64,000 bases of DNA. Origin: Euzebya tangerina (GTDB lineage Bacteria; Actinomycetota; Nitriliruptoria; Euzebyales; Euzebyaceae). The DNA lies in NCBI RefSeq assembly GCF_003074135.1, contig NZ_PPDK01000003.1, positions 310,001 to 374,000 on the forward strand, given 5' to 3'. Shown here one piece after another: positions 6,681-40,868 of this stretch (positions within the stretch are counted from its first letter, which is position 1; every line of letters begins with the position of its first letter). Both the position numbers and the translations under genes were made by a program. Under the pieces are notes generated by a model. It searched no databases. It worked only from the letters and a program-made list of their open reading frames with translations, and had not been told where the DNA came from.

Positions 6681-8621
<1,941 letters not shown>

Positions 8622-8624
8622 GGG

Positions 8625-9428
8625 CTACTCCTCTTCCTCAAACTCTTCGACGACGGCTTCGCACTCGGTGTTGCACTCGATGACCCCGAACAGGGTGCCG
8701 AGTGGGAACGTCAGATTGATACCCGTTACGACGACGGTCAGACCAATGGCCAGATATCTGCGCCACGCATTGAACCGGGTGCTGTTCAGTCCCAGCGTCT
8801 GGAACAGGCTCCAGGTGCCGTGGTAGATGTGCGTGCCCAGGGCGAGCACCGCCAGGATGTAAAACAGGGCGACGGGGATCCGGGAGAGGCTGGCGGTCAG
8901 GTTGTTGGTGATCGCCCCGCGCACGTACTCGTCCGTGGTCCACCCCCACGTCAGATCCGCCAGGTGGAACACGATGAACGCCAGCAGGATCGTCCCGGTG
9001 TAGATCATGGTCCGCGAGGCGTAGTCGGCCGTGATGTAGGAGCGCGCGGACTGGTACTTGACCGGCCGAGCCTTGCGGTTCTGCCAGGTCAGGGTGTAGG
9101 CCGCGTGGACGTGGACCAGCAGCGCACCGAGCAGTCCGAGCCGGCCGATCCACAGCAAGAAGGTGCGTGGGACCAGGGGCTCGCCGATCTCACGAAGCCC
9201 CTCGCCGTACTCCGTGAACTTGACGGCTCCCTCGTAGACGTGGAGGTTCCCGAGCGCGTGGACGACGATGAAGCCGAGGCCGATGATGCCCGACAGGGCC
9301 ATCACGTACTTCTTGCCCATGGCCGACCGGTAGAAGTCCACGATCCAGAAGCGCGAGCGTTCGATGCTGGGCTTCGGCGCCTTGCCCAGAGGATCGATCG
9401 AGCTGCGTGGAGGGGTCGCCGTACTCAT
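8625..9428 (-). CDS. sdhC: Succinate dehydrogenase cytochrome b subunit (B-type)
   Basis: 267-aa single membrane anchor with about five transmembrane helices and conserved histidines in helices (VVHALGNLHVY, LLVHVHAAY, IVFHLADL, GTHIYHG) suitable for two b hemes. One long subunit rather than SdhC plus SdhD marks it as the B-type family (TIGR02046-like), which usually uses menaquinone. The C-terminus is an acidic tail (EEFEEEE). A Shine-Dalgarno AGGAGA precedes the ATG by about 9 nt. The 206 bp between this gene and the divergent YceI gene must hold the sdh promoter. Confidence 0.93.
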   Translation of the reverse strand: MSTATPPRSSIDPLGKAPKPSIERSRFWIVDFYRSAMGKKYVMALSGIIGLGFIVVHALGNLHVYEGAVKFTEYGEGLREIGEPLVPRTFLLWIGRLGLLGALLVHVHAAYTLTWQNRKARPVKYQSARSYITADYASRTMIYTGTILLAFIVFHLADLTWGWTTDEYVRGAITNNLTASLSRIPVALFYILAVLALGTHIYHGTWSLFQTLGLNSTRFNAWRRYLAIGLTVVVTGINLTFPLGTLFGVIECNTECEAVVEEFEEEE

Positions 9429-9603
9429 CTGTCGCTGTCTCCTGGAAGGAAGGAACCGAACAGCGAAAGGGTATCAGCGGGGCCGCTGTGGCCTGGCATC
9501 GAGCGACCGCACGTGTCGGCTCGGGTGACATTCACGAGCGGCGTCACAGATTCTCGGAGGCGGGGGAATATCCGCGGGTCGAGTCCGTTGTAGCTCCGAC
9601 AAG

Positions 9604-9619
9604 TTAGATTTCAAACTAA
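9604..9619. promoter_or_regulatory. Imperfect palindrome, candidate MarR-type operator
   Basis: TTAGATTTCAAACTAA is a 16-bp near-palindrome (TTAGnTTnnAAnCTAA) just upstream of the Shine-Dalgarno (AAGGAG, 9622-9627) of the YceI gene. It is strikingly AT-rich for this genome. Its size and form are like MarR-family sites, but no MarR gene is present in the window. Confidence 0.45.
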
Positions 9620-9634
9620 TCAAGGAGCATCGTC

Positions 9635-10210
9635 ATGACCACCGCCACCGCAACCCTCGACCGCAGCGTCGACGGCCAGCCGTTCCCGGCCGTCGGGACC
9701 TACGAGATCGACGCCGCCCACTCCCAGGTTCAGGGCATCGTGCGCCACCTCAAGGTCAGCAAGGTGCGCGCCAACTTCACCGACTTCGCCGGCACCATCA
9801 CGGTGGCCGAGGAGCCCACCCGCTCCGGCGTGCAGATCGCCATCGCCGCGTCCACCGTCGACACGCGCAACGCCGACCGGGACGCCCACCTCCGCAGCGG
9901 CGACTTCCTCGACGTGGAGCAGTTTCCCGAGATCACGTTCCGCTCCACATCCGTGGAACCGGGGTGGCGGGTGACCGGGGATCTCACGATCGCCGGTGTG
10001 ACCCGCTCGGTGGTCCTCGACACCGAGTACCTGGGCACGCACAAGAGCCCGATGGGCCCCACCATCGCTGCCTTCGAGGCGACCACCACGATCAATCGCG
10101 AGGACTTCGGGATCACCTGGAACGCGCCGATGGAGGCGGGCGGCGTCCTGGTGAGCAAGGAGGTCAAGATCGAGCTCGAGATCCAGGCCGCGCTGCAGGG
10201 TCAGGAGTAG
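9635..10210 (+). CDS. YceI-family lipocalin-like protein
   Basis: 191-aa YceI-family protein. The core GTYEIDAAHSQVQGIVRHL, followed by NADRDAHLRSGDFLDVEQFPEITF and a DFGITWN segment near the end, is diagnostic. YceI proteins form an extended lipocalin-like barrel that binds long isoprenoids or other lipids. This copy has no signal peptide, as is common in actinobacteria, so a cytoplasmic role is likely. A Shine-Dalgarno AAGGAG sits 7 nt before the ATG. It is monocistronic and convergent with orn, 18 bp away. Regulation by a MarR-type repressor is suggested only by the palindrome at 9604-9619. Confidence 0.9.
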   Translation: MTTATATLDRSVDGQPFPAVGTYEIDAAHSQVQGIVRHLKVSKVRANFTDFAGTITVAEEPTRSGVQIAIAASTVDTRNADRDAHLRSGDFLDVEQFPEITFRSTSVEPGWRVTGDLTIAGVTRSVVLDTEYLGTHKSPMGPTIAAFEATTTINREDFGITWNAPMEAGGVLVSKEVKIELEIQAALQGQE

Positions 10211-10228
10211 CCGTCCGCACGGGGTGCG

Positions 10229-10792
10229 TCACCGGTCCTGGAAGATCGCCTTGCGGTAGTAGCGCAGCTCGTCGATCGACTCCTGGATGTCGGCCAGGGC
10301 TCGGTGGTCCCCACCCTTCTTCGGAGCCGCCTCCTTGGCCTCCGGGAACCAGCGGGCGGCCAGTTCCTTGACCGTCGACACATCCACGTTGCGGTAGTGG
10401 CAGTGCGCCTCGAGCTCTGGCATGTAGGCCTTGAGGAAGGCCCGGTCAGCGTGCACCGAGTTCCCTGCCAGCGGTGCCACGCCTGACTCGGGGATGTGCT
10501 CGCGCAGGAAGTCGAGCACCACCTGCTCCGCCTGTCGGGCCGTGACATCACTCTCCCGAACCGCAGTCGTCAGGCCGGACTTCTCATGCATCTTGACCAC
10601 CACGGGGTGCATCGCGTCCAGCACCTCCTCCGGTGCGTTGATGATCAGCTCCGGCCCCTCGATCTGGGTGTCCAACTGGCCATCCGTGATGATGACGGCG
10701 ATCTCGACGATCACCTCCGTCGCCGGGTCCAGTCCGGTCATCTCGAGGTCGACCCAGATGAGTGGATCATGCAGGTCCTGCAGTGCGCTCAT
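10229..10792 (-). CDS. orn: Oligoribonuclease
   Basis: 187-aa DEDDh exonuclease that degrades 2-5 nt RNAs and pGpG, the breakdown product of c-di-GMP. The motifs are WVDLEMTGLD (Exo I acids), HADRAFLKAYMPELE (Exo II) and HRALADIQES (Exo III His and Asp). I chose the ATG at 10790-10792 because the family begins about ten residues before the first motif. The frame stays open to 10960 with an in-frame ATG at 10840, giving up to 243 aa, but the extra residues do not look like the family. Its presence fits the two c-di-GMP enzymes in the window. Confidence 0.94.
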   Translation of the reverse strand: MSALQDLHDPLIWVDLEMTGLDPATEVIVEIAVIITDGQLDTQIEGPELIINAPEEVLDAMHPVVVKMHEKSGLTTAVRESDVTARQAEQVVLDFLREHIPESGVAPLAGNSVHADRAFLKAYMPELEAHCHYRNVDVSTVKELAARWFPEAKEAAPKKGGDHRALADIQESIDELRYYRKAIFQDR

Positions 10793-10855
10793 CGCCTGAG
10801 CGTAGTCGGACCGCGGCACGACGTGTCCGTGGACAGCCATCCGTCGGATGTGATA

Positions 10856-10892
10856 TGTTCTGCTATATGGCATTATCCCGCATGGTGAGACT
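10856..10892. promoter_or_regulatory. Two copies of a shared 15-bp motif upstream of the methylene-THF reductase gene
   Basis: TGTTCTGCTATATGG (10856-10870, plus) and AGTCTCACCATGCGG (10878-10892, read on minus) face each other 31-67 bp before the start at 10923. Similar 15-mers occur at 28581-28595, 28599-28613 and 33884-33898, all next to betaine genes. This suggests an operator for a common regulator, possibly the IclR protein encoded at 21643-22416. Confidence 0.45.
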
Positions 10893-10922
10893 TTCTGAAT
10901 CTGGGATTGGTGAGGTGGCGAA

Positions 10923-11882
10923 TTGTCCGTGAGGGCGATGGCCCCATCCGCAGAAGACATGGTCGTGGTGGTTCCAACGGGGATCCAGACCGCGCTCGCG
11001 CGGCTGATGGCGGGGGCCAGCGTCGAGGTGACGCCGCGCGATGTGGACGCGGTCGAGGTGTTGCGGCGGCGGCTGCCGTCCGGAGCGTCGGTCTACATCA
11101 CCCACCTCCCTGGACAGCCACTCGAGGCCTCACTGGAGGTCGCCGTCGCGCTTCGCGCGTCAGGTCTCCGACCGGTGCCCCACATCGCGGCCCGCTCCCT
11201 GCGAAGCCGCCAGGAACTCGACCAGGCGCTGCGGTCACTGCGCGGTGACGCAGGCGTCGACGACGTGCTGTTGATCGCCGGCGGCGTGGACCCGGTCGGG
11301 CCGTTCACATCGAGCCTCGACCTGCTGCGCGAGGGGGTCCTGGTTGAGCACGGGATCACCTCGCTGGGCGTTGCAGGCCATCCAGAGGGGGCCCCGGACA
11401 TCGCCGAATCCGAGCTGGCCGACGCCATCGCACTGAAGAACGCCTACGCCGTCGAGACCGGAACCGCCGTACGCCTGGTCACGCAGTTCACCTTCGACCC
11501 CGAGCCGACCATCGCGTGGGAGCGCCGGCTGCGTGCGGCCGGCAGCTCCTTGCCCATCCACGTCGGCCTGCCGGGTGCAGCCGCGGCCCAGACGCTCATC
11601 CGGTTCGGGATCCGCTGCGGGGTCGGCCCGTCCCTGTCGGTGCTGAAGAAGCAGTCGCGGCGCCTGCTGCAACTCGCGTCGATGACGCCGCAGTTCCCCG
11701 ACGCCACCGTCCTCGGTGTGGCCTCGGCCGCAGACGCGGACCCAGCAAGTCTCTTCCAGGCCTTCCACTTCTTCCCGTTCGGCGCCCTCGACCGAACACT
11801 CACCTGGGCGGCCGAGGTCCAGTCCGGACAGGCCGGCCTCGACCGCGAGAACCGCTTGATCACCCCCAGCCGGCGGGGCTGA
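10923..11882 (+). CDS. metF: Methylenetetrahydrofolate reductase (MetF-like)
   Basis: About 319-aa TIM-barrel flavoprotein of the MTHFR family. It contains VTQFTFDPEPTIAWERRLRAAG, matching the TQ-x-FFD region of MetF, and SLPIHVGLPG, the usual following strand. The start is uncertain: TTG at 10923 follows GAGGTGG by about 6 nt, while ATG at 10938 has a Shine-Dalgarno that is too close. It lies 47 bp before formate-THF ligase, and the shared motif with the betaine operon upstream suggests it works in the oxidative direction, turning methyl-THF from demethylation into methylene-THF. That direction is inference from context. Confidence 0.85.
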   Translation: MSVRAMAPSAEDMVVVVPTGIQTALARLMAGASVEVTPRDVDAVEVLRRRLPSGASVYITHLPGQPLEASLEVAVALRASGLRPVPHIAARSLRSRQELDQALRSLRGDAGVDDVLLIAGGVDPVGPFTSSLDLLREGVLVEHGITSLGVAGHPEGAPDIAESELADAIALKNAYAVETGTAVRLVTQFTFDPEPTIAWERRLRAAGSSLPIHVGLPGAAAAQTLIRFGIRCGVGPSLSVLKKQSRRLLQLASMTPQFPDATVLGVASAADADPASLFQAFHFFPFGALDRTLTWAAEVQSGQAGLDRENRLITPSRRG

Positions 11883-22416: not shown

Positions 22417-23976
22417 TCAGATGTCCGAATCAGGAACGGCAGCCTTGCGCGTGCGAATCCACTCCTGCAACTCCTCGTCGACGGCGTCATCGAGCCCTGG
22501 GTCGAGGTACTCGCCCAGGCGGGACGTCCACGTCTCGCTGGCCGTGGCGACAGCGTCCTTGGCCCCCTCCTCCGCCCACTGCTCGTAGCTGTCGTGATTG
22601 GCCACGGCTGACGACCAGAACGCCGTCTCGAAGTTGGCCAGCGTGTGCGGGTGTCCCAGGAAGTGCTGGCCCGGCGGGTTGGTGGTCAGCGCCTCCATCG
22701 CCTGGGCGTTGTCGTCCAGGGACACCCCGTCGGTGTAGGTGCCGGCCATCGAGACCCGGTCGGCGTCGAGGATGTACTTCTCGAAGCCCATGACCAACCC
22801 GCCCTCCAACCAGCCGGCGCTGTGGAGCACGAAGTTGACTCCGGCCTGGATGGTGGCCAGGAACGTGATCGCACTCTCGTAGGCAGCCTGGTAGTCGGCC
22901 GTCTTGGCCGACGTCAGGTTGCCCCCGCTACGGAACGGCACCCCCAGTCGGCGAGCCAGGGCCGCGTTGACCATCAGCATCAGCTGGGCCTCGGGCGTTC
23001 CGAAGGTCGGCGCCCCGGTCTGCATGGACATGGACGAGGCGAACGAGCCGAAGATGACCGGTGCACCCGGCCGCACGATCTGGCAGAACGCCATGCCGGC
23101 CATCGCCTCGGCCAGTGACTGGGTGGCCACACCGGCGATGGTCACCGGGGCCATCGCGCCGGCCAGGATAAACGGTGTGATCAGGCAGCCCTGGCCAGCC
23201 TCGGCGTAGGCCTTGGCCGAGCCCAGCATGGCGTAGTCCCACGACATCGGGGAGTTGGCGTTGCACAGGCTGACCAGCACGCAGTCAGACTCGAGCCGCT
23301 CGGCCCCGAACGCGATCCGAGCCATCTCCACCGTGTCCTCGGCTCGCTCAGGTGCCGTCACCGAGCCCATGAACGGCTTGTCGGCGTACCGCAGGTGGGC
23401 GTACACCATGTCGAGGTGCCGCTTGTTGACAGGCAGGTCCGTCGGCTCGCAGAGCGTCCCTCCGCCGTGGTGCAGGGCCGAGGTCATCTGCCCAACCTTC
23501 ACCAGGTTGGTGAAGTCCGCGAAGGTTGCGTAGCGGCGACCCCCCACCAGATCCCGTACGAATGGGGGTCCGTACGTGGGTGCGAAGACGGTGTGATCTC
23601 CGCCGATCTGAACGCTCTTCGTGGGGTTGCGTGCGTGCTGGGTGAAGACGGCGGGTGCCGACGCCGTGATGAGGTCCCGGCACATCCCGCGCGGAAATCG
23701 CACTCGACTTCCGTCGACCTCCGCCCCTGCCGCTGCGAAGATCTCGGTCGCCTCAGGGAAGTCGACCACGTCGACCCCGACAGTCTCGAGCAGGATGTCG
23801 GCGTTGAGTTCGATCAGCTCCAATCCCTCGGTGGACAGCACCTCCGTGGGCGCCAGCTTGCGGGTCAGGTAGGGAACCGACTCCACGGCCTTGGCCAGGC
23901 GTTCCGCCTGTCGCGCAGCCCTGCCGCCCCCACGCCTGCGCCCCGGAGTGCGGCTCGAGGACGTCTCGCGGCTCAT
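22417..23976 (-). CDS. MttB-superfamily corrinoid methyltransferase (non-pyrrolysine)
   Basis: 519-aa member of the trimethylamine methyltransferase (MttB/MtgB) family, a TIM-barrel enzyme moving a methyl group from a quaternary amine to Co(I)-corrinoid. Family landmarks include PRGMCRDLI near the N-terminus, KPFMGSVTAPERAEDTVEM, and GAPTFGTPEAQLMLMVNAALARR. There is no in-frame TAG, so it is a non-pyrrolysine member. Characterised relatives act on glycine betaine, proline betaine, carnitine or butyrobetaine. Linkage to dimethylglycine dehydrogenase and betaine uptake favours glycine betaine. The start overlaps the RACo gene by 4 bp. Confidence 0.9.
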   Translation of the reverse strand: MSRETSSSRTPGRRRGGGRAARQAERLAKAVESVPYLTRKLAPTEVLSTEGLELIELNADILLETVGVDVVDFPEATEIFAAAGAEVDGSRVRFPRGMCRDLITASAPAVFTQHARNPTKSVQIGGDHTVFAPTYGPPFVRDLVGGRRYATFADFTNLVKVGQMTSALHHGGGTLCEPTDLPVNKRHLDMVYAHLRYADKPFMGSVTAPERAEDTVEMARIAFGAERLESDCVLVSLCNANSPMSWDYAMLGSAKAYAEAGQGCLITPFILAGAMAPVTIAGVATQSLAEAMAGMAFCQIVRPGAPVIFGSFASSMSMQTGAPTFGTPEAQLMLMVNAALARRLGVPFRSGGNLTSAKTADYQAAYESAITFLATIQAGVNFVLHSAGWLEGGLVMGFEKYILDADRVSMAGTYTDGVSLDDNAQAMEALTTNPPGQHFLGHPHTLANFETAFWSSAVANHDSYEQWAEEGAKDAVATASETWTSRLGEYLDPGLDDAVDEELQEWIRTRKAAVPDSDI

Positions 23977-26015
23977 CGTCTGCTCCTTGTTCGTCGTCCG
24001 CTCGTCCGCGCAGCGGGCGGACCCGTCGTCGGTGCCGGGAGGGCCACGTGCTCGGCCAGGTGGCGGTAGGTGGCGGTGGTGTGCGGGAAGCCCATGGCCG
24101 CGACGAAGTGCTCTTGGAACCTCGGCTCGATCGCCGTCTCGACCTTCTCGATGCTGCTGGCCAACTGCTCCCCGCGTCGCCGGGCCGCGACCGACAGCAG
24201 GCTCATGAGCGAGCCATGGCCGGCCGCATTGCCGACGGAGGTGACGTGGGCCGGTTCGCAGTCGGGCACCAGTCCGAGGACCAGCGCCCGGAGCGGGTCG
24301 ATGTGGTTGCCGAACGCGCCAGCCAGATGGACTCGATCGACGGCGTCGACCCCCAGTCGGTCCATCAGCAGTCGGGCCCCGGCGTACAGCGCCGCCTTGG
24401 CGAGTTGGATCGCTCGGACATCGTTCTGGGTGATGTCCACGGCCATCTGGCCCCGGCCCGGGTCACCCTCGACCAGCCGGTAGCGCCACGTCCGCTCGTC
24501 ACGAACCAGCCGGGGGTGGCCGGCGTCGCCGTCACGCGGCTGCAGCCGACCATCAGCGGTGATGACGCCGGCCAGGAACAGCTCTGCCAGGACCTCGATG
24601 ATCCCCGACCCGCAGATGCCGGTGATGCCGGTCGTCTGGATCGAGGCAGCGAAGCCCGGGTCGTCCGACCAGAGCTCCGAGCCGATGACGCGCAGACGCG
24701 GCTCCAGCGTGATCGGGTCGATCCGAACCCGTTCGATGGCACCTCGTGCCGCTCGCTGGCCGCTGCTGATCTGGGCCCCTTCGAACGCCGGACCGGTGGG
24801 TGAGGAGGCGGCCAGCAGCCGATCGGCGTTGCCCAGGACCAGTTCGGCGTTGGTGCCGACGTCGACCAACAGCGTCAGCTCGTCGCGCTGGTCCGGCGCG
24901 TCAGCCAGCACCATCGCGGTGGCGTCCGCGCCGACGTGGCCGGCGATCAGCGGTGGCAGGTAGACGCGTGCACCCGCATGGGTGCCGAGGCGCAACTCGG
25001 CGGCTGGCACGGTGATGGCCTCCGTCGTGGCCAGCGCGAACGGGGCGCTGCCCAGGGGGGTCGGATCGAGCCCGAGGACCAGGTGGTGCATGATCGGGTT
25101 GCCGACCAGGCAGACCTCCAGGATGTCGTCGGGGTCGATACCCGCGTCGCGCGACAGGTCCTGCACCAGGTCGGCCAGCGCCCCGCGCACGGCGGCGGTC
25201 AGGCGCTCACGTCCGTCGGCGTTCATCATCACATAGGAGACCCGACTCATGAGGTCCTCGCCGTAGGCGATCTGCGGGTTCATCCGGCCGGCTGACGCGA
25301 GCACCTCCCCGGATCCCAGATGGCAGAGGTGGCCGGCGACGGTGGTCGAACCGATGTCGAAGGCAGCCCCGTAGACCGCGTCCTTCAAGCCCGGCCACAC
25401 CGCCACGATCCGGGCTGCACCGTCCTCCCGGCGCAGCGCGACGGTGACGCCGCCCCCGTGCTGTGCGATGGCGGGCCCGAGCTCCGCCAGGGCGGCAAGG
25501 TCCACCGTTGCCTCAGCGACACCCCAACTGTGCGCGAGCGCATCCCGAAGTCGCTGCAGATCACCGCGACGGTCCTCCATGGTCGCGGGGGGTATCTCCA
25601 CGTAGCGCAGGACCACCACCGGGTCGACGTCGACCGGTCGGTCGCCGGCCGCCTTGCGCACGACCTGTCGATGGGCCTGGCTCTCGGGCGGCACAGCGAT
25701 GACGACGTCGCCCTCCACGATCGCCGCGCAGCCCAGGCGTCGGCCTTCGAGCAAGGGCCGTCGCCCCCGATAGGCGCGTTCGGTGGAGGTGACCGCGCCG
25801 AGATGGGACGGGTCGGCCCCGACGCCGGGTTGCTCGCCCAGGCCGATCTGGCAGCGGCCGCACAGCCCCCGGCCCCCGCAGACGCTGTCGAGGTCCACGC
25901 CCAGGGCCCGGGCGGCGTCCAGCACCGTGGTCCCCGGAGCCACGCGGCCGCGGCGGCCCGAGGGGCTGAACGTGATCGCGACGGTCGAGTCGCCGCCCGG
26001 CTCAGGCGGTGGCAC
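23973..26015 (-). CDS. RACo-like corrinoid activation protein (ferredoxin-ASKHA)
   Basis: 680-aa reductive activator of corrinoid proteins. The N-terminus is a plant-type [2Fe-2S] domain with Cys 46, 52, 55 and 96. The large C-terminal part is the ASKHA ATPase domain (DUF4445), with FDIGSTTVAGHLCHL and VDVGTNAELVLGN as the two phosphate-binding loops. It uses ATP and low-potential electrons to return inactive Co(II) to Co(I). I start at the GTG at 26015, where GAGGTGG sits about 7 nt upstream and the 2Fe-2S domain follows after about 12 residues. The frame is open to 26132, inside the upstream gene. It overlaps the genes on both sides. Confidence 0.92.
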   Translation of the reverse strand: MPPPEPGGDSTVAITFSPSGRRGRVAPGTTVLDAARALGVDLDSVCGGRGLCGRCQIGLGEQPGVGADPSHLGAVTSTERAYRGRRPLLEGRRLGCAAIVEGDVVIAVPPESQAHRQVVRKAAGDRPVDVDPVVVLRYVEIPPATMEDRRGDLQRLRDALAHSWGVAEATVDLAALAELGPAIAQHGGGVTVALRREDGAARIVAVWPGLKDAVYGAAFDIGSTTVAGHLCHLGSGEVLASAGRMNPQIAYGEDLMSRVSYVMMNADGRERLTAAVRGALADLVQDLSRDAGIDPDDILEVCLVGNPIMHHLVLGLDPTPLGSAPFALATTEAITVPAAELRLGTHAGARVYLPPLIAGHVGADATAMVLADAPDQRDELTLLVDVGTNAELVLGNADRLLAASSPTGPAFEGAQISSGQRAARGAIERVRIDPITLEPRLRVIGSELWSDDPGFAASIQTTGITGICGSGIIEVLAELFLAGVITADGRLQPRDGDAGHPRLVRDERTWRYRLVEGDPGRGQMAVDITQNDVRAIQLAKAALYAGARLLMDRLGVDAVDRVHLAGAFGNHIDPLRALVLGLVPDCEPAHVTSVGNAAGHGSLMSLLSVAARRRGEQLASSIEKVETAIEPRFQEHFVAAMGFPHTTATYRHLAEHVALPAPTTGPPAARTSGRRTRSRR

Positions 26016-26898
26016 GTCGGCGGCCACCTCGACGTCGGCCCCGGCTCTCGGTCTCGACTGGCCGGTAGGTGCTGATCCAGGTCGCACAGTCCGGGTCGTG
26101 GCCGGCCAGCACGTCCGCGGCACGGATGGCACGGACGATCTCGGGTTCCAGGGGATTGGTGATGGCCGAGGTCATGCCGGCGGCGATGGCCATGGCGAGG
26201 AACGCGCTGTTGATTCCCGCCCGCTCCGGCAGACCGAAGCTGACGTTGGACGCGCCGCAGGTGGTGTTGACCTTCAACTCGTTGCGAAGCCGCCGCACCA
26301 GCTGGAACACCTGCTGGCCTGCCGTCGCCATGGCGCCGATGGGCATGACCAACGGGTCGACGACGATGTCGGAGGCGGGGATGCCGTGGTCGGCCGCCCG
26401 GTTGACGATCTTCTGGGCGACGGCGAAGCGAACGTCCGGATCCTCCGAGATGCCGGTCTCGTCGTTCGAGATGGCCACGACGGCGGCGCCGTGCTTGGCG
26501 ACCAGGGGGAGGACCTGCTCCATCTGCTCGTCTTCGCCGGTGACGGAGTTGACCAAGGCCTTGCCCTCATACGCCTCCAGCCCGGCCTGCAGGGCAGCGA
26601 CGATCGAGGAGTCGATCGACAGCGGCACGTCCACCAGGGACTGGACCAGCCGGATCGTGTCGGCGAGGATCGCCGGCTCGTCGGCCAACGGGATTCCGGC
26701 ATTGACGTCCAGAACGGGCGCGCCCGCTGCCACCTGCGCCAGGGCATCCGCCTCGACCCGGCTGAAGTCGCCGTTCTTCATCTCCTCGGCCAGCGCCTTT
26801 CGGCCGGTCGGGTTGATGCGTTCGCCGATCATGACGAACGGGCGGTCGAACCCGATGACGGTCTCTCTCGTCGCCGAGCTGATCATGGTGTCGGTCAT
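26002..26898 (-). CDS. Methyltetrahydrofolate:corrinoid methyltransferase (MtgA-like)
   Basis: 298-aa pterin-binding TIM barrel of the AcsE/MtgA/DHPS-like family. IGERINPTGRKALAEEM is the pterin-binding start. VLDVNAGIPLADE, PLSIDSS and ALVNSVTGE follow in order, and NTTCGASNVSFGLPERAGIN is the strand-7/8 loop typical of MetH/AcsE-type domains. It would transfer the methyl group from the corrinoid protein to THF. The C-terminus ends in a basic RGRRRGGRRR tail not usual for the family. It starts with a 4-bp overlap with the small gene upstream and overlaps RACo by 14 bp. Confidence 0.92.
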   Translation of the reverse strand: MTDTMISSATRETVIGFDRPFVMIGERINPTGRKALAEEMKNGDFSRVEADALAQVAAGAPVLDVNAGIPLADEPAILADTIRLVQSLVDVPLSIDSSIVAALQAGLEAYEGKALVNSVTGEDEQMEQVLPLVAKHGAAVVAISNDETGISEDPDVRFAVAQKIVNRAADHGIPASDIVVDPLVMPIGAMATAGQQVFQLVRRLRNELKVNTTCGASNVSFGLPERAGINSAFLAMAIAAGMTSAITNPLEPEIVRAIRAADVLAGHDPDCATWISTYRPVETESRGRRRGGRRRATA

Positions 26899-27869: not shown

Positions 27870-28565
27870 TCACGCAGCCGCCAGTCGGCGGGCGGTGACG
27901 AGTGCCTGCGCGGTCTCCGCCGCAACCGCGGCATCGCGGCAGTAGGCGTCGGCCCCGACGGCCGCCCCGAACTCCTCGTTCAGCGGCGCGCCCCCGACCA
28001 GCACGATGTAGTCGTCCCGGATGCCGCGCTTCTTCATCTCCTCGATGACCACCTTCATGTACGGCATCGTGGTGGTCAGCAGTGCGGACATGCCCAAGAC
28101 GTCGGGCTTGTGCTCCTCCAGCGCGGCGATGTAGGTCTCGGCTTCGATGTTGATGCCGATGTCGATGACCTCGAACCCGGCGCCCTCGAGCATCATCCCC
28201 ACCAGGTTCTTGCCGATGTCGTGGATGTCGCCCTTGACGGTGCCGATGACGATCTTGCCGACCTGTTCAGCTCCGGTCTCGGCCAGCAGCGGCCGCAGCA
28301 GCTCCATGCCGGCCTTCATCGCGTTCGCGGCCAGGAGGACCTCGGGGACGAACAGGATCCCGTCCCGGAAGTCGATCCCGACGATGCGCATGCCCTCCAC
28401 GAGTGCGTCCGCCAAGACCTTCTGCGCATCCCAGCCGCGATCGAGCAGGATCTGTGTCCCCTCCGCGATCTCCTCGGCCAACCCGTCGTAGAGGTCGTCG
28501 TGCATCTGGGCGACGAGTTCCTCGTCGTCGAGCGCCGAGAGGTCCAGGTCGTCGTCTTGCTCCAT
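27870..28565 (-). CDS. Corrinoid (cobalamin-binding) methyl carrier protein
   Basis: 231-aa MtgC/MtbC-like protein. An N-terminal helical cap is followed by the Rossmann-like B12 domain with GDIHDIG (DxHxxG, the His that ligates cobalt), then NIEAETYIAALEEH, LTTTMPYMK and IVLVGGAPLN. It carries the methyl group between the MttB-family enzyme and the MtgA-like enzyme, and is re-reduced by RACo. I start at the ATG 28563-28565, giving the usual length; an in-frame GTG-rich extension to 28616 runs through the operator motifs. It is the first gene of the seven-gene operon. Confidence 0.95.
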   Translation of the reverse strand: MEQDDDLDLSALDDEELVAQMHDDLYDGLAEEIAEGTQILLDRGWDAQKVLADALVEGMRIVGIDFRDGILFVPEVLLAANAMKAGMELLRPLLAETGAEQVGKIVIGTVKGDIHDIGKNLVGMMLEGAGFEVIDIGINIEAETYIAALEEHKPDVLGMSALLTTTMPYMKVVIEEMKKRGIRDDYIVLVGGAPLNEEFGAAVGADAYCRDAAVAAETAQALVTARRLAAA

Positions 28566-28580
28566 CGTCACCACCAGGGT

Positions 28581-28613
28581 TGTTCCGCTATGCGGTACTG
28601 TTCTACCAGGTGG
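28581..28613. promoter_or_regulatory. Direct pair of the shared 15-bp motif in the divergent betaine/channel region
   Basis: TGTTCCGCTATGCGG (28581-28595) and TGTTCTACCAGGTGG (28599-28613) are spaced 18 bp start to start. The first contains a perfect CCGC-TAT-GCGG palindrome. They sit 16-48 bp before the corrinoid protein ATG and 65-97 bp before the channel gene, so one protein bound here could affect both. Related sites are at 10856-10892 and 33884-33898. Confidence 0.55.
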
Positions 28614-28677
28614 CATTCTAGCAATTCTCTCGTGCGGAGTCGAGAGCTAGGATTCAGGCCCGAGCCAGGAGGCACTG

Positions 28678-30786
28678 GTGCATCGACCTCTTCACAGGCA
28701 CATCGTCGCGGCGATCGGCCTTCTCTGCCTCCTCATCGTCACCATCTCCCCTGCTGAGGCTCAGTCCGAGCAGCCCCCGTCTGCCGACGACCAGGTGCCG
28801 ACGGTGCGATTGGCGCGTCCCACCTGGGACACCGGCTGGTTCCAGGCGGAGATCAACCGCATCCTCCTGGAACGCCTGGGATTCGCGGTCGACGGCCCAC
28901 AGACCATGGAGAACGAGGCCTTCTACGATGCGGTCGCCCGTGGCGACATCGATCTGTGGGCCAACGGCTGGTTCCCGCTCCACGGCCCACTCCTCGGCGA
29001 TGACGACGACGTCCGCATCGTCGGAACCCAAGTGGACGACGGTGCCCTCCAGGGGTACTTCACTGACCTCGCCACGGCCGAGGAGGTCGGGATCACCTCG
29101 CTCGGTGACCTGGCCGATCCCGAGATCGCCGCGCGGTTCGACACTGACGAGGACGGACGTGCCGACCTGATCGGCTGCAACCTCGAGTGGGCCTGTCACG
29201 AGATCGTCGAGCACCACCTGACCGCGTACGAGCTGACCGACACGGTCGAACAGGTCTCGGGCGACTACTCGCCGCTCATGGAGGAGACGGTGCGACGCTT
29301 CCAGGCCGGCGAGCCGGTGCTGTACTACACGTTCACCCCGAACTGGATCCCGGCGTTCCTGGAGCCCGGCGAGGACGTCGCCTGGCTGCAGACCCCCTTC
29401 CCCAGCCTGCCCGAGCCGTCTCCGGACCCGTCGGTGCTGGACTCGATGACGCTGGCGGACGTGCCCGGTTGCGCCGATGATCCCTGTCAGACCGGCTGGG
29501 CACCCAACGACATCCGGGCGGTGGCCGGCGCCTCGTTCCTCGACGCCAACCCACAGGTCGAGACGCTGCTGGAGCAGGTGCAGATCCCGCTTGCCGACAT
29601 CCAGCGTCAGAACGCGCGGATGGTCGACGGCGAGGGCGACAGCACCGACATCGCCCGACACGCCGAGGAGTGGGTGGCTGAACATGAGGCCACCGTCCAG
29701 GAGTGGCTGAACCTGGCCGACCCGGATGCCGTGCCCCTCGACCAGCAGCGAGGAACGGGCCCGGCTGGCACGGGCGAGACCTGGCAGGTCGCGGTGCGGA
29801 CCTTCGAACCGTTCGTCACCTACGAGAACCGTGTCTATGGCGGGTTCTCGGTGGAGCTGACCGAACTCCTCGCCGCGCGGATGGGCGTCGAGGTCGAGTA
29901 CTACGGGGTCAACAGCGTCGCCAAGCAGATCGACGACGTGCAACGCGGCGCCGCCGATCTCGCCCTCTCCGGCATCAGCATCACCGCCGACCGGGAGGCC
30001 GGGATCGACTTCTCCCTGCCGGTGTTCGACACCGGTCTGACCATCCTGGTTCCTGCTGACCAGGGCCGTGGGATCGGTGATCGCATCCGGTCGCTGGCGG
30101 GGGCAATCTTCACCACCGAACTGCCATGGCTGATCCTGGCCTTCGTGCTCGTGCTGCTCCTCGCGGCGCACATGATCTGGTGGCTCGAACGGCGGGACAA
30201 CCCCGACTTCCCCGAGCTGTACGGCCGCGGGATCTGGGACTCCTTCTGGTGGTCGGCGGTGACGATCACCACGGTCGGGTACGGCGACAAGGCACCGAAG
30301 GGCGTCGCCGGGCGGGGCTTCGCGCTGCTGTGGATGATCGCCGGCTACTTCGTGTTCGCCTCGTTCACCGCATCGATCACGTCCTCGCTGGCCGTCGATG
30401 AGTTGCAGGGCTCGATCGCCGGACCGTCAGACCTTCCCAACCACGTCGTGGCCACGCTCCCGAACTCCCCGGCCGAGGCGTACCTGAACGGGCAGGGCAT
30501 CGGACCGGTGCTGGTCGGAGACCTGCCGGAGGCCTACGAACTGCTCGACGAGGGTGAGGTCGACGCCATCGTCTTCGACGCCCCGATCCTGCAGTTCTTC
30601 GCGGCCCGGGAGGGCAGCGGACGGTTCCGCACCGTCGGGCCGGTGTTCGAAGACGTCCGCTACGGGATCGCCGTCGGGGACGACGCCGATCGCCGCGAGC
30701 AGATCAACCTGGCATTGCTCGACGTGATCGAGAGCGGTGTCTACGACCAGCTGCACGACCAGTGGTTCGGGGCGCTCGCCGATTGA
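28678..30786 (+). CDS. ProX-type betaine-binding domain fused to a GluR0-like potassium channel
   Basis: 702-aa secreted/membrane fusion protein. A signal peptide (1-29) is followed by a ProX-type substrate-binding domain (about 40-345). This has TWDTGW, DLWANGWFPLH, a DxDxDGxxD loop at 155-163, GCNLEWAC at 166-173, YELTDTV and YYTFTPNW. After a linker comes glutamate-receptor lobe S1 (about 368-460) with ADLALSGISITADRE, TM1 (about 483-501), a pore helix, TVGYGD at 532-537, TM2 (about 547-571) with SFTASITSSL, and lobe S2 (about 585-700) with IVFDAP. TVGYGD is a perfect K+ selectivity filter, so the core resembles GluR0. GTG start with AGGAGG 5 nt upstream. The gene is divergent from the betaine demethylation operon and convergent with a stand-alone ProX lipoprotein. 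Confidence 0.9.
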   Translation: MHRPLHRHIVAAIGLLCLLIVTISPAEAQSEQPPSADDQVPTVRLARPTWDTGWFQAEINRILLERLGFAVDGPQTMENEAFYDAVARGDIDLWANGWFPLHGPLLGDDDDVRIVGTQVDDGALQGYFTDLATAEEVGITSLGDLADPEIAARFDTDEDGRADLIGCNLEWACHEIVEHHLTAYELTDTVEQVSGDYSPLMEETVRRFQAGEPVLYYTFTPNWIPAFLEPGEDVAWLQTPFPSLPEPSPDPSVLDSMTLADVPGCADDPCQTGWAPNDIRAVAGASFLDANPQVETLLEQVQIPLADIQRQNARMVDGEGDSTDIARHAEEWVAEHEATVQEWLNLADPDAVPLDQQRGTGPAGTGETWQVAVRTFEPFVTYENRVYGGFSVELTELLAARMGVEVEYYGVNSVAKQIDDVQRGAADLALSGISITADREAGIDFSLPVFDTGLTILVPADQGRGIGDRIRSLAGAIFTTELPWLILAFVLVLLLAAHMIWWLERRDNPDFPELYGRGIWDSFWWSAVTITTVGYGDKAPKGVAGRGFALLWMIAGYFVFASFTASITSSLAVDELQGSIAGPSDLPNHVVATLPNSPAEAYLNGQGIGPVLVGDLPEAYELLDEGEVDAIVFDAPILQFFAAREGSGRFRTVGPVFEDVRYGIAVGDDADRREQINLALLDVIESGVYDQLHDQWFGALAD

Positions 30787-30810
30787 TCGTGTGACCAATC
30801 GGTGAGCGCC
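30771..30810. terminator. Hairpin shared by channel gene and ProX lipoprotein gene
   Basis: GGCGCTCGCCGATTG (30771-30785) pairs with CAATCGGTGAGCGCC (30796-30810), 14 of 15 bp with a 10-nt loop. The left arm is the last coding part of the channel gene including its stop. It lies between convergent genes and is probably a bidirectional terminator. Confidence 0.65.
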
Positions 30811-30825
30811 CTCGTCGGGGCCGCG

Positions 30826-31908
30826 TCAGCCTCGTGCCGTCTCCAACCACCCGTCCACGAGCTCGCGGTTGTCCTCGATCCAGTCCGCCGCGTCCTGGGC
30901 GACCTGGGCGTCGGTGTACTCGCCCGCTTCGTTCATCCGGGCGTTCTGGTCGGCGATGTCCTGCAACGGGATCTCCACGACCTCGAGCAGTCGTCGCACC
31001 ACCGGGTTGTCGTCCAGGAAGTCCGGGTTGGCGACAGCACGGATGTCGTTGACCACCCAACCGAGGTCGCAGGGCTCCTCGCCCGCACAACCCTCGATGT
31101 CGACCTCGGTCGACTCCTCGACGTCCTCCCGTGCCGTCGACTCCAGCCAGACGACATCCTCACCGGGCTGCAGCACGTCGATCGTCCAGTTCGGGGTCCA
31201 GGTGTAGAACAGCGTCGGCTCGCCCTCCTCGACGCGGCTCTGGACGTCCTCGAGCAGGTCGTTGTACTCGCCGACGACCTGCTCGACGTTGTCCCCCCAC
31301 CCGAGCTCCTCGATCTGTGAGGTGATCTCGAGGTTGCAGCCCCACCCCTCGTTGCAGCCCTGCAGGTCAGCCCGACCGTTGCCGTCGATGTCGAAGACGG
31401 CCGCGACGGCTGGATCGGACAGGTCATCCATCGACGTGATGCCCATCTCCTCCGCCGTGGCCCGGTCGATCAGGTAGCCCTGGACGGCTCCTCCCTCGAC
31501 CTGGGTGCCGACGACCTCGATCGACTCCGAGATCTCCTGCCCGGTGAAGAGCGGGCGGCTCAAGTAGATGTCGTGGAGCGGGAACCAGCCGTTGGCCCAG
31601 AGGTCGACCTGTCCTTGCGCAAGAGCCGGATAGAACGTGGCGGCATCGCGGGTGAGGTCGGCGGGGTCGCTGACCTCATAGTCCAGTTCCTCGAGCAGTT
31701 GACGGTAGATCTCGGCTTGCATCCAGCCGGTATCCCAGGTGGCACGGGCCATCGTGATGCTGGCGCCACCACCTCCTTCCCCTGCAGCGGGCCCGCCATC
31801 GGCAGTCCCGTCGTCGGTGCTGTTGCAGCCAGCCAACGCCAGCAGCAGCACGACCAGCACTGCCAGGTGGCGATCAGGTTGAAAGCGCGTCCTGGCCACA
31901 GTGATCAC
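30826..31908 (-). CDS. ProX-like glycine betaine-binding lipoprotein
   Basis: 360-aa lipoprotein with lipobox LAGC (Cys28). The mature part is a ProX/OpuAC-type binding protein closely related to the N-terminal domain of the channel fusion. Shared blocks are TWDTGWMQAEI, DLWANGWFPLH, DxDxNGxxD, GCNEGWGC and TWTPNW, so the Trp residues of a betaine-binding aromatic cage appear present. It overlaps the BCCT gene by 4 bp. No ABC permease or ATPase gene is nearby, which is unusual for this family. It may deliver betaine to an unlinked ABC system, assist BCCT uptake, or interact with the channel. Confidence 0.92.
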   Translation of the reverse strand: MITVARTRFQPDRHLAVLVVLLLALAGCNSTDDGTADGGPAAGEGGGGASITMARATWDTGWMQAEIYRQLLEELDYEVSDPADLTRDAATFYPALAQGQVDLWANGWFPLHDIYLSRPLFTGQEISESIEVVGTQVEGGAVQGYLIDRATAEEMGITSMDDLSDPAVAAVFDIDGNGRADLQGCNEGWGCNLEITSQIEELGWGDNVEQVVGEYNDLLEDVQSRVEEGEPTLFYTWTPNWTIDVLQPGEDVVWLESTAREDVEESTEVDIEGCAGEEPCDLGWVVNDIRAVANPDFLDDNPVVRRLLEVVEIPLQDIADQNARMNEAGEYTDAQVAQDAADWIEDNRELVDGWLETARG

Positions 31909-33773
31909 GCGTCCTTCTCGTCGTCGGCGCTCGGCTTGTCGGCCACGGCGACGGCTGCGGGCTGGTCAGTCGACTCCACCGCGGCGTCGCCATCCGGCAC
32001 ACCGCCCTCGCCACCCGGGTCAACCCGTTCGTACAGCCCCGTGTGCTGGGCTCGATGCAGCGCAGCGTCGTAGTGCGCCCCGAGCAGGTCGAGCTCTTCG
32101 TTGAAGGCGATGTAGAGGCTGTAGCACATGATCAGCAGGACGATGGCGAACGGCAGCCCGGTCGTGATCGCGGCGGTCTGGAGGGCATCCAGGCCACCAC
32201 CGATCAGCAGCACCGCGGCCAGCAGCCCCTCCATGATCGCCCAGAAGACGCGCTGCGGGACTGGGGAGTCCAGCTTGCCGCCGGAGGTCAGGTGGTCCAC
32301 GACCAGCGACCCCGAGTCGGAGGAGGTGACGAAGAACGATGTCACCAACAGGATGCCGAGGATCGAGGTGACCGAGGTGAGTGGGAACGCCTCGAGCATG
32401 TCGAAGAGCGCCGTCGCGACATCCTCGTTGACTGCCGCTGCGACGTCGCGGACACCGTTCAGCTGCAGGTTGATCGCCGTGCCACCGAAGACCGACATCC
32501 ACAGCGCCGACAGCAGTGTCGGGAACGCCACGACGCCGAGCAGCAACTCACGGACCGAGCGCCCCTTGGAGATGCGGGCGATGAACATGCCCACGAATGG
32601 CGACCACGAGATCCACCAGCCCCAGTAGAAGATCGTCCACGATCCCTGCCACTCGCCTGCCGTGAACGCCTCGTTCCAGAAGGACAGCCGTGGCAGGACC
32701 GTGATGTACTCGCCGAGACTCTCCACGAACACGCTGGCGATGAACAGCGTCGGCCCCACGACGATGATGAAGATCATGAAGGCCATCGCCAGATAGATGT
32801 TGATCTGGCTGAGTCGCTTCACGCCGCCATCGAGCCCGGCGACGACGCTCATGGTGGCCATCCCGGTGATCACCGCGATCAGGAGCACCTGGAACCCGGT
32901 ACCCGTCGGGGTCCCGAACAGGAATCCGAGACCGGCGGCGGCCTGACCGACACCGAACCCGAGTGAGGTGGCCAGGCCGAAGAGGGTGGCGAGGACGGTG
33001 AGGATGTCGATGACATTGCCCCACGTGCCGTAGATCCTCGGCCCCAGGATCGGGTAGAAGACCGAGCGGAACGTCAGGGGGAGGCCGCGGTTGTAGGCGA
33101 AGAAGGCGAGTGCCAGCGAGACCAGCGCGTAGATCGACCAGGGGTGCAGGCCCCAGTGGAAGAAGGTCGTGGCCAGGGCGGCGTTACCGGCCTCCCCCGT
33201 GCCACCCTCGACCCCGAACAGCGGCGCGGGGCCGGTGAAGTGATAGATCGGTTCGGCGACGGACCAGAACATCAGACCGATCCCCATGCCTGCACTGATG
33301 AGCATCGCGTACCAGGCGCCGGAGGAGAACTCCGGCTGGGCGGTCGGTCCACCGATCCGGATCTTGCCGTAGCGGCTGAAGGCGAAGAACCCGCAGGCCA
33401 GGACGAAGATGTTGGCCGCCATGATGTAGAGCCAGCCGAAGGTGTTGCCGACGAAGTTGAGGACGGTGTCGAAGGCACTCGACGCCTGCTCCTGGAAGAT
33501 CAACGTGAGGGCGACGAAGGCGACGAGGATGCCGCCCGACCAGAAGGTCACCTGCGGGTGCAGGTCGAAGCCCCACTTGACGATGTTGGTGTCGCCGGGT
33601 TCGCGGTCTGCCACCTCGGGGTAGAAGTCGATGTCAGGATCGATCTGCAGACCCTCGAACTTGGCTCTCTCGTGGATGGCCGCGTGCCGTCTGTGGCGCT
33701 CCTCGGCCTCCACGGCGTCATGTTCGGCGACCTCGTCTGTCAGGTCATCGTGGTGCGAATCGTTCTCGGCCAT
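31905..33773 (-). CDS. BCCT-family betaine/choline/carnitine transporter
   Basis: 622-aa secondary transporter with about twelve membrane helices. The glycine-rich SAGMGIGLMFWSVAEP and the Trp-rich helix YWGWWISWSPFVGMFIARIS correspond to the BetP substrate and sodium-site regions. Long charged N- and C-terminal tails (about 80 and 60 residues) resemble osmosensing tails of BetP-like members. I start at the ATG at 33773, which has AGGGAG about 7 nt upstream; the frame is open to 33869. It overlaps the ProX-like lipoprotein gene and probably feeds betaine to the demethylation pathway. Confidence 0.94.
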   Translation of the reverse strand: MAENDSHHDDLTDEVAEHDAVEAEERHRRHAAIHERAKFEGLQIDPDIDFYPEVADREPGDTNIVKWGFDLHPQVTFWSGGILVAFVALTLIFQEQASSAFDTVLNFVGNTFGWLYIMAANIFVLACGFFAFSRYGKIRIGGPTAQPEFSSGAWYAMLISAGMGIGLMFWSVAEPIYHFTGPAPLFGVEGGTGEAGNAALATTFFHWGLHPWSIYALVSLALAFFAYNRGLPLTFRSVFYPILGPRIYGTWGNVIDILTVLATLFGLATSLGFGVGQAAAGLGFLFGTPTGTGFQVLLIAVITGMATMSVVAGLDGGVKRLSQINIYLAMAFMIFIIVVGPTLFIASVFVESLGEYITVLPRLSFWNEAFTAGEWQGSWTIFYWGWWISWSPFVGMFIARISKGRSVRELLLGVVAFPTLLSALWMSVFGGTAINLQLNGVRDVAAAVNEDVATALFDMLEAFPLTSVTSILGILLVTSFFVTSSDSGSLVVDHLTSGGKLDSPVPQRVFWAIMEGLLAAVLLIGGGLDALQTAAITTGLPFAIVLLIMCYSLYIAFNEELDLLGAHYDAALHRAQHTGLYERVDPGGEGGVPDGDAAVESTDQPAAVAVADKPSADDEKDA

Positions 33774-33883
33774 CCAGCACTCCCTAGTGTCACGCCGGGA
33801 GGACGGCGGACGACCTGAGCCTCCCGAGGCGGGTTGAGTCGGCGGGACCTTATCAAACCGCCGGTCCACCCTTTGGGATTATC

Positions 33884-39656: not shown

Positions 39657-40868
39657 GTGAGCGCTCACTCGACGAAATTCAGCACCATGCCAATACTACT
39701 AAGAGTGCTCTCGACAGTCGTTTCTGTAGTGTCACTAATGGTTGCTGGTCCTGGCATTGCGCTGGGCGACACGCCGCCGCAGGACCCGGGGCTCTCCGTG
39801 GGCAAGGCGCACGATCATGCCGTGGCGGCTGACGTTGTCACGACGCTGGGCATCAACGGTGGCAGCGCGACGGGTCTGGGCGTCGGTGTGGCGTTGATCG
39901 ACACGGGTGTCAGCCCGGTTGCGGGACTCGAGGACGTGGTCTTCGGGACCGACGTGTCATCGGATCAAACCGTTCCGGCTCTTCGCGACCTCGACGCCTT
40001 CGGGCACGGGACGCACCTGGCCGGTCTGATCACGTCGGACCGTCCTGACGCGCCGGGCGTCGCCCCCGATGCGCGACTGGTGTCGATCAAGGCCGGGGCC
40101 TCCGACGGCTCGGTCGAGACCGAGCAGGTCATCCAGGCTGTCGAGTGGGCGACGGCGAATCGGACCAGCCACGGAATCGATGTGTTGGTGTTGGCGTACG
40201 GAACCGAGGACCGCGATCCGAATGCCGAGGCACTGGTCGAGGCCGTTGACGCCGCTGCTGAAGCAGGCATCGTCGTGGTCGTCTCGGCCGGCAACCATGG
40301 GGCCGAGGCGCCGGAGGTGTCCCATCCGGCCAGCAGCCACCGGGTCATCGCGGTCGGCGCCGTCGAGGGATGGCAGACGGCCGAGGCGTCCGACGACGCG
40401 GTTGCGGCGTACTCCCCCGTCGGGACGGCGCTGCGTGGACCGGACGTTCTGGCGCCGGGGACACGCGTGGTGTCGACCGGCGTGCCAGGATCGTGGTTGT
40501 CGGAGGCCAACCCGGTGGCGGACCGCGGACGTGGCCTGTTCCGGGGGACTGGCACGTCGCAGTCGGCTGCCATCGTCGGCGGGGCCGCAGCGCTGCTCCT
40601 CGAGGTGGCCCCCTCGCTCTCCCCCGACGAGGTCGCCAGTGTGTTGGTCCGGACCAGCACGGCGATCGATGGGAGCACGGCCGGCGTGATCGATGTCGAG
40701 GCGGCCCTGGCGGCCATCGGGGCATCTTCAGTCGACGAGGGGCCGGACCTAGGCTGGGACGGCCAACGCTGGGACGGCCAACGCTGGGACGGCCAACGCT
40801 GGGACGGCCAACGCTGGGACGGCCAACGCTGGGACGGCCAACGCTGGGACGGCCAACGCTGGGACTAG
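39657..40868 (+). CDS. Secreted S8 subtilisin-like peptidase with C-terminal WDGQR repeats
   Basis: 403-aa subtilase. A signal peptide spans about 11-37. The catalytic triad is D82 (LIDTGVSP), H117 (FGHGTHLAG) and S301 (GTGTSQSAAIVGG), and SAGNHG supplies the oxyanion Asn. The C-terminus is seven exact WDGQR pentapeptides plus a final WD, encoded by 15-bp repeats identical at DNA level. There is no propeptide of normal size, so processing may differ from standard subtilases. The GTG start has no clear Shine-Dalgarno beyond CAAGG. The upstream 55 bp contain GACTAGTC (39606-39613), which recurs before the other subtilase gene. Confidence 0.92.
   Translation: MSAHSTKFSTMPILLRVLSTVVSVVSLMVAGPGIALGDTPPQDPGLSVGKAHDHAVAADVVTTLGINGGSATGLGVGVALIDTGVSPVAGLEDVVFGTDVSSDQTVPALRDLDAFGHGTHLAGLITSDRPDAPGVAPDARLVSIKAGASDGSVETEQVIQAVEWATANRTSHGIDVLVLAYGTEDRDPNAEALVEAVDAAAEAGIVVVVSAGNHGAEAPEVSHPASSHRVIAVGAVEGWQTAEASDDAVAAYSPVGTALRGPDVLAPGTRVVSTGVPGSWLSEANPVADRGRGLFRGTGTSQSAAIVGGAAALLLEVAPSLSPDEVASVLVRTSTAIDGSTAGVIDVEAALAAIGASSVDEGPDLGWDGQRWDGQRWDGQRWDGQRWDGQRWDGQRWDGQRWD
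40755..40865 (+). repeat. 15-bp tandem repeat encoding WDGQR
   Basis: Seven identical copies of TGGGACGGCCAACGC (40755-40859) are followed by TGGGAC (40860-40865) and the stop codon. Perfect identity, including third codon positions, implies recent expansion or gene conversion, and copy number is likely variable. Confidence 0.97.

Follow-up and report, generated by a model that had tools for sequence, protein, structure and literature searches.

Can a glycine betaine-binding protein form part of an ion channel? The question is raised by one gene in the window, by which we mean the whole 64,000-nucleotide stretch of Euzebya tangerina DNA analysed here. The first-pass annotation of this DNA had read the gene as a ProX domain fused to a glutamate receptor-type K+ channel, and had proposed that the ProX part senses external betaine and controls K+ flow. 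We ask here whether the fusion is genuine, what its ligand sites, relatives and neighbours suggest about its function, and how it might act.

A ProX domain and a GluR0-type channel share one reading frame

Translation of the window gives a single unbroken frame of 702 residues plus stop at 28678-30786 (+), preceded by a good ribosome-binding site. The frame and all of the motifs quoted in the first-pass annotation (TWDTGW, DLWANGWFPLH, GCNLEWAC, YYTFTPNW, TADRE, TVGYGD, SFTASITSSL and VFDAP) are thus borne out. The gene and its parts are as follows.

28667..28672 (+): ribosome-binding site AGGAGG, 5 nt 5' of the GTG start (read from the sequence)
28678..30786 (+): ProX-GluR0 fusion channel, 702 aa (translation, Pfam, NCBIfam and PDB matches, homologues)
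28678..28761 (+): signal peptide, about residues 1-28 (sequence; AF2 helix at 6-21, then low-confidence coil)
28798..29718 (+): ProX/OpuAC glycine betaine-binding domain, about residues 41-347 (Pfam, NCBIfam, PDB, alignment, Foldseek)
29719..29781 (+): linker without a transmembrane segment, about residues 348-368 (sequence, AF2 model)
29782..30057 (+): S1 half of the amino acid-binding domain, about residues 369-460, carrying R439
30121..30192 (+): TM1, about residues 482-505 (AF2 model)
30220..30288 (+): pore helix and K+ selectivity filter TVGYGD, the latter at residues 532-537 (sequence, AF2 model)
30304..30411 (+): TM2, about residues 543-578 (AF2 model)
30412..30783 (+): S2 half of the amino acid-binding domain, about residues 579-702, carrying D634

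Cleavage of the signal peptide is likely to follow the AEA motif. Pfam places OpuAC at residues 42-335 (E 7.2e-43), SBP_bac_3 at 374-698, Ion_trans_2 at 493-570 and Lig_chan at 484-589, with all four matches exceeding the Pfam gathering scores, and the N-terminal part scores 321.7 bits with the NCBIfam ProX equivalog NF008334 (cut-off 215). In the PDB, the N-terminal part is closest to E. coli ProX (1r9l), and S1/S2 to 2pyy, a bacterial ionotropic glutamate receptor ligand core. The order S1-TM1-pore-TM2-S2 is evident from the Pfam coordinates and from AF2 helices at 482-505, 515-532 and 543-578, and the filter carries the K+ signature TVGYG(D), so that the domain assignment, the layout and the resemblance of the pore to a K+ channel are all correct as first read. 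The AF2 monomer (pLDDT 75, pTM 0.45, built on an 11-row alignment) folds into two domains joined by a linker of low confidence and shows the pore helices expected of a channel; the relative placement of the domains is unreliable. Foldseek searches with this model return E. coli ProX (TM 0.83 by target, 37% identity) and AMPA-receptor LBD-TMD chains, and a viral fold library gave no informative match.

In common with Synechocystis GluR0 and the Group 1 channels of Ger et al. 2010 (PMC2950845), the fusion has a signal peptide, S1, TM1, a K+ filter, TM2 and S2, an Arg in S1 and an Asp in S2 for an amino acid, and no M4. As described so far, those channels have only the signal peptide ahead of S1 and, as the first-pass annotation stated, no N-terminal domain (PMC6385376), whereas the fusion adds ProX at this position; the bare N-terminus is a matter of description and is not required for function. 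It is therefore a variant of the GluR0-type channel and not an ordinary member. The added domain has the same fold as E. coli ProX and other ProX/OpuAC proteins, with an aromatic cage accompanied by His and Cys, but those proteins are normally free in the periplasm or are lipoproteins of ABC importers, and this one is covalently joined to a channel. Eukaryotic glutamate receptors have an amino-terminal domain of another periplasmic-binding-protein type. Like the fusion, they place an extracellular bilobed domain before S1 and have a ligand-binding domain and a re-entrant pore, but they differ in that the K+ filter is not conserved and an extra M4 is present (PMC6385376).

We found no description of a ProX-GluR0 fusion in the open-licence papers searched, in which this GluR0-type variant is apparently undescribed. 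The main text of Ger et al. 2010, which surveyed the glutamate receptors of prokaryotes (PMC2950845), contains neither 'betaine' nor 'N-terminal', and betaine binding is absent from the domain list in its Figure 6 legend.

The fusion recurs in actinobacteria and cyanobacteria

The same architecture was found in seven more genomes, giving eight intact fusions with that of the window; two further copies are broken. Intact full-length relatives are present in Salsipaludibacter albus AS10 (class Nitriliruptoria; 64% identity), in the Nitriliruptorales MAG Ww637 (58%) and in another actinobacterium, G647 (57%). Four more intact copies (G101, G306, G115 and G163), with 41-53% identity per domain, belong to a single cyanobacterial class, which is that of G101, a MAG of an uncultured cyanobacterium, and a fifth member, G433, has a fusion split by a frameshift. 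OpuAC, SBP_bac_3, Ion_trans_2 and Lig_chan all score above the Pfam gathering scores in each of the seven other intact proteins. The distribution across sampled genomes is sparse: the fusion occurs in 3 of 66 genomes of the window's class and 4 of 396 of its phylum (the window's own counted in both), and in 5 of 340 genomes of the cyanobacterial class when the split copy is included. None was found in the class (0/289 sampled genomes) or phylum (0/349) of an alphaproteobacterial relative, G102 (Pseudomonadota).

These relatives bear on whether the gene is an artefact of gene fusion, sequencing or assembly. Some copies do come from MAGs, G433 is frameshifted and a copy in G009 lacks ProX and TM1; but S. 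albus AS10, a named strain whose record carries no MAG label, has the fusion whole, as do seven further genomes (the window's among them), and the eight intact copies refute this explanation, to which we assign a negligible probability. A chance open reading frame or a sequencing artefact is likewise excluded, since there are full-length actinobacterial relatives at 57-64% identity together with the cyanobacterial ones matched domain by domain.

Several related sequences are also recorded here. A cyanobacterial fusion at 8339-10532 (+) of locus L081 has its frameshift near the pore. In G009 (L041/L025, the same record) the segment at 10586-11467 (-) has S1 in frame with TVGYGD, TM2 and S2, with ProX and TM1 missing, and this remnant is either a decayed copy or a MAG error. 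A 672-aa frame with a ProX match in G1254 (L119) proved to be a proX gene overlapping a permease gene and not a channel fusion. A plasmid-borne origin was rejected, there being no plasmid record that covers 80% of the query.

In a tree of ProX domains the fused copies form one clade on one side of a branch (90/94), away from the ProX proteins of uptake. The tree of the channel half places all eight fused copies in a starred clade of eleven rows that also holds three unfused channels, and a single origin of the channel half is compatible with the tree (p-AU 0.313, not rejected). The simplest reading of these sequences would be one fusion, transfer between the phyla and a few losses of ProX, although a history with separate fusion events is conceivable.

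Conservation of the two ligand sites

We take the ligand residues of E. coli ProX to be W65, H69, W140, C142 and W188, which we verified on the 1r9l sequence; they correspond to W98, H102, W171, C173 and F219 of the window protein. The first four positions are W, H, W and C in all nine aligned fused ProX domains, and at the fifth six domains have W and three have F (the window, S. albus and Ww637), one of the nine domains being from a frameshifted copy. Counted over intact fusions only, the W188 equivalent is Phe in three of eight, the window's among them. G101 has the most divergent cage, with a gap and substitutions beside the conserved residues; the first Trp lies in ETW-PDH (NGWFPLH in the window) and the last in FYAWTPHE (YYTFTPNW in the window). 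The tryptophan cage of ProX has been described (PMC10087775). The first-pass annotation missed both the Phe substitution and the altered surround in G101. Because of these two departures the ligand may differ, and an alternative explanation is that the fused domain senses, in place of betaine, some compound such as choline, carnitine, ectoine or DMSP (another osmolyte, or a different quaternary ammonium or sulfonium compound), the mechanism being otherwise unchanged. We consider this fairly unlikely given that the ProX equivalog score is well above its cut-off, that the choline-binding model gives the window protein only 25.7 bits against a cut-off of 379, and that the neighbouring genes are of betaine type.

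In the channel half, R439 of S1 and D634 of S2 align to the amino acid-binding pair of 2pyy, and both residues and TVGYGD are kept in all eight intact fused channels. Many stand-alone cyanobacterial relatives of GluR0 (channels in L058-L077) lack the TVGYGD filter and have one of LAT--QAE type; judged by filter sequence, these are of another selectivity class than all intact fused copies.

Both halves are constrained, since dN is low relative to dS in each for the close cyanobacterial pair L079/L080: 0.091 and 1.1 for ProX (dN/dS about 0.08) and 0.039 and 0.691 for the channel (about 0.06). Identity in the linker of the same pair is 35%. This pattern bears on the proposal that an amino acid at S1/S2 gates the channel and that ProX serves mainly in assembly or trafficking, with little ligand-driven effect. 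A GluA1-based K+ channel chimera lacking the N-terminal domain did keep robust agonist responses (PMC6385376), a point in favour of this proposal. However, a domain needed for assembly alone requires no cage, and the W/H/W/C residues with an aromatic fifth are conserved across two phyla in a ProX domain that is under purifying selection; we therefore regard this explanation as improbable.

Betaine-type genes adjoin the channel gene in actinobacteria

The neighbours of the channel gene in the window are the following.

22417..23976 (-): MttB-superfamily methyltransferase with an uninterrupted frame (non-pyrrolysine, MtgB-like; PF06253 693.6 bits)
23973..26132 (-): RACo-type corrinoid reductive activator
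26002..26898 (-): methyltetrahydrofolate:corrinoid methyltransferase, MtgA-like (NF005719 369 bits, above cut-off)
27870..28616 (-): MtgC-like corrinoid protein, divergent from the channel gene across a 61-nt gap
30762..30824: strong terminator-like hairpin between the convergent channel and ProX genes (-44.5 kcal/mol, z -5.5 versus shuffles)
30826..31908 (-): stand-alone ProX lipoprotein, 48% identical to the fused domain
31905..33869 (-): BCCT-family transporter, glycine betaine BCCT-like, its stop overlapping the start of the ProX gene

The BCCT gene scores 500.4 bits with TIGR00842 BCCT, above the cut-off, and 566.7 bits with the betaine_BCCT model, below the cut-off of 650. There are no ABC importer genes adjacent to the channel gene of the window. 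Each of the four actinobacterial loci with an intact fusion has a BCCT-ProX pair next to the channel gene. The two are convergent in the window and in S. albus and Ww637, which share its gene order; in G647 the channel gene is divergent from the BCCT gene but still adjacent to it. Within the flanks examined, the cyanobacterial copies have no match to the betaine-type neighbours or to the corrinoid genes of the window, and the linkage evidence is therefore actinobacterial only.

On the other side of the channel gene, the MtgC-like, MtgA-like, RACo and MttB-family genes suggest betaine demethylation, and are likely an actinobacterial corrinoid set for that purpose. The best NCBIfam model for the corrinoid protein is MtgC at 210.8 bits, below the curated cut-off of 370, and the MttB-family protein scores 243.9 bits with the TMA/Pyl equivalog, below the cut-off of 525. 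Corrinoid methyltransfer genes were seen in the window only, being absent from the other loci within the flanks examined; we therefore set aside their linkage as a general feature and do not count it as general evidence. Farther away, at 39657-40868 (+), the window encodes a protein of the subtilase family whose C-terminal region carries a run of WDGQR repeats.

BCCT-ProX pairs also occur without the channel gene in further relatives. A ProX-type lipoprotein directly adjoins a BCCT gene in many Nitriliruptoria and in G647 (pairs at 30826-33869 (-) of the window and in L023, L024, L025, L026, L027, L028, L031, L033, L034, L035 and L098). We know of no BCCT transporter that works with a binding protein, and the pair may thus constitute a binding-protein-assisted BCCT system. 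Three further OpuAC proteins are encoded elsewhere in the window's genome, and the frames flanking two of them resemble ABC transporter genes, judged by their starts.

These observations bear on the possibility that the fused ProX is simply a tethered substrate-binding protein that feeds betaine to the BCCT transporter or another importer, the channel half being an independent and ordinary GluR0. Where a lipoprotein lies beside a BCCT gene with no channel, as in many related genomes, the ProX protein probably does serve uptake. Three observations count against this explanation, which we think quite unlikely to be correct. The genome already encodes a lipoprotein next to the transporter, as well as three other OpuAC proteins; the fused domains group separately from the ProX proteins of uptake; and the cyanobacterial copies have no BCCT match within the flanks examined.

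A model for control of K+ flow by betaine

We know of no ligand-gated ion channel described as sensing compatible solutes. The reading that we favour, and consider probable, is that the fusion is a GluR0-type K+ channel liganded by an amino acid and modulated by an extracellular betaine sensor. Two observations favour betaine sensing, as first proposed: the conserved aromatic cage and, in actinobacteria, the linkage to a BCCT-ProX pair. That the fused ProX domain would bind betaine and thereby gate or modulate K+ current, and the sign and physiological end of this effect, are further steps that we too infer.

By analogy with GluR0, the protein would be a tetrameric, K+-selective, ligand-gated channel, with the extra extracytoplasmic domain where eukaryotic glutamate receptors have their amino-terminal domain. 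Glycine betaine from outside, or a closely related compound such as proline betaine, would close the ProX lobes, and the linker of about 20 residues would transmit this movement to S1/S2, where an amino acid ligand would also bind, and so alter the open probability of the K+ pore. Arrival of betaine outside the cell, together with its uptake through the neighbouring BCCT transporter, would then lead to K+ release, the likely physiological use being to swap K+ for a compatible solute and to restore the membrane potential. In Synechocystis, GluR0 conducts K+, exposes its soluble parts on the outside and takes part in the fast first response of cell volume to KCl upshock (PMC13099474); Bacillus subtilis exports K+ during osmoadaptation while compatible solutes accumulate (PMC8844918). 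A K+ channel that responds to betaine, encoded next to an importer of betaine type, would fit such an exchange.

A fuller version of this model, which we offer tentatively and hold somewhat short of an even chance, is a two-ligand K+ channel in which betaine and amino acid sensors in one subunit jointly set K+ flow in a swap of K+ for betaine during osmotic adaptation. It would be a bacterial counterpart, of separate origin, to the way in which animal glutamate receptors are built with an amino-terminal domain.

If betaine does modulate the channel, the fusion would connect osmolyte availability with K+ flux directly, at the molecular level; these two sides of osmoadaptation are usually joined only through regulation. 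It would also offer a small bacterial model, present in one named strain (S. albus AS10), of how an N-terminal binding domain gains control over a glutamate-receptor pore, a modulatory domain of this kind being one feature that separates GluR0 from animal receptors.
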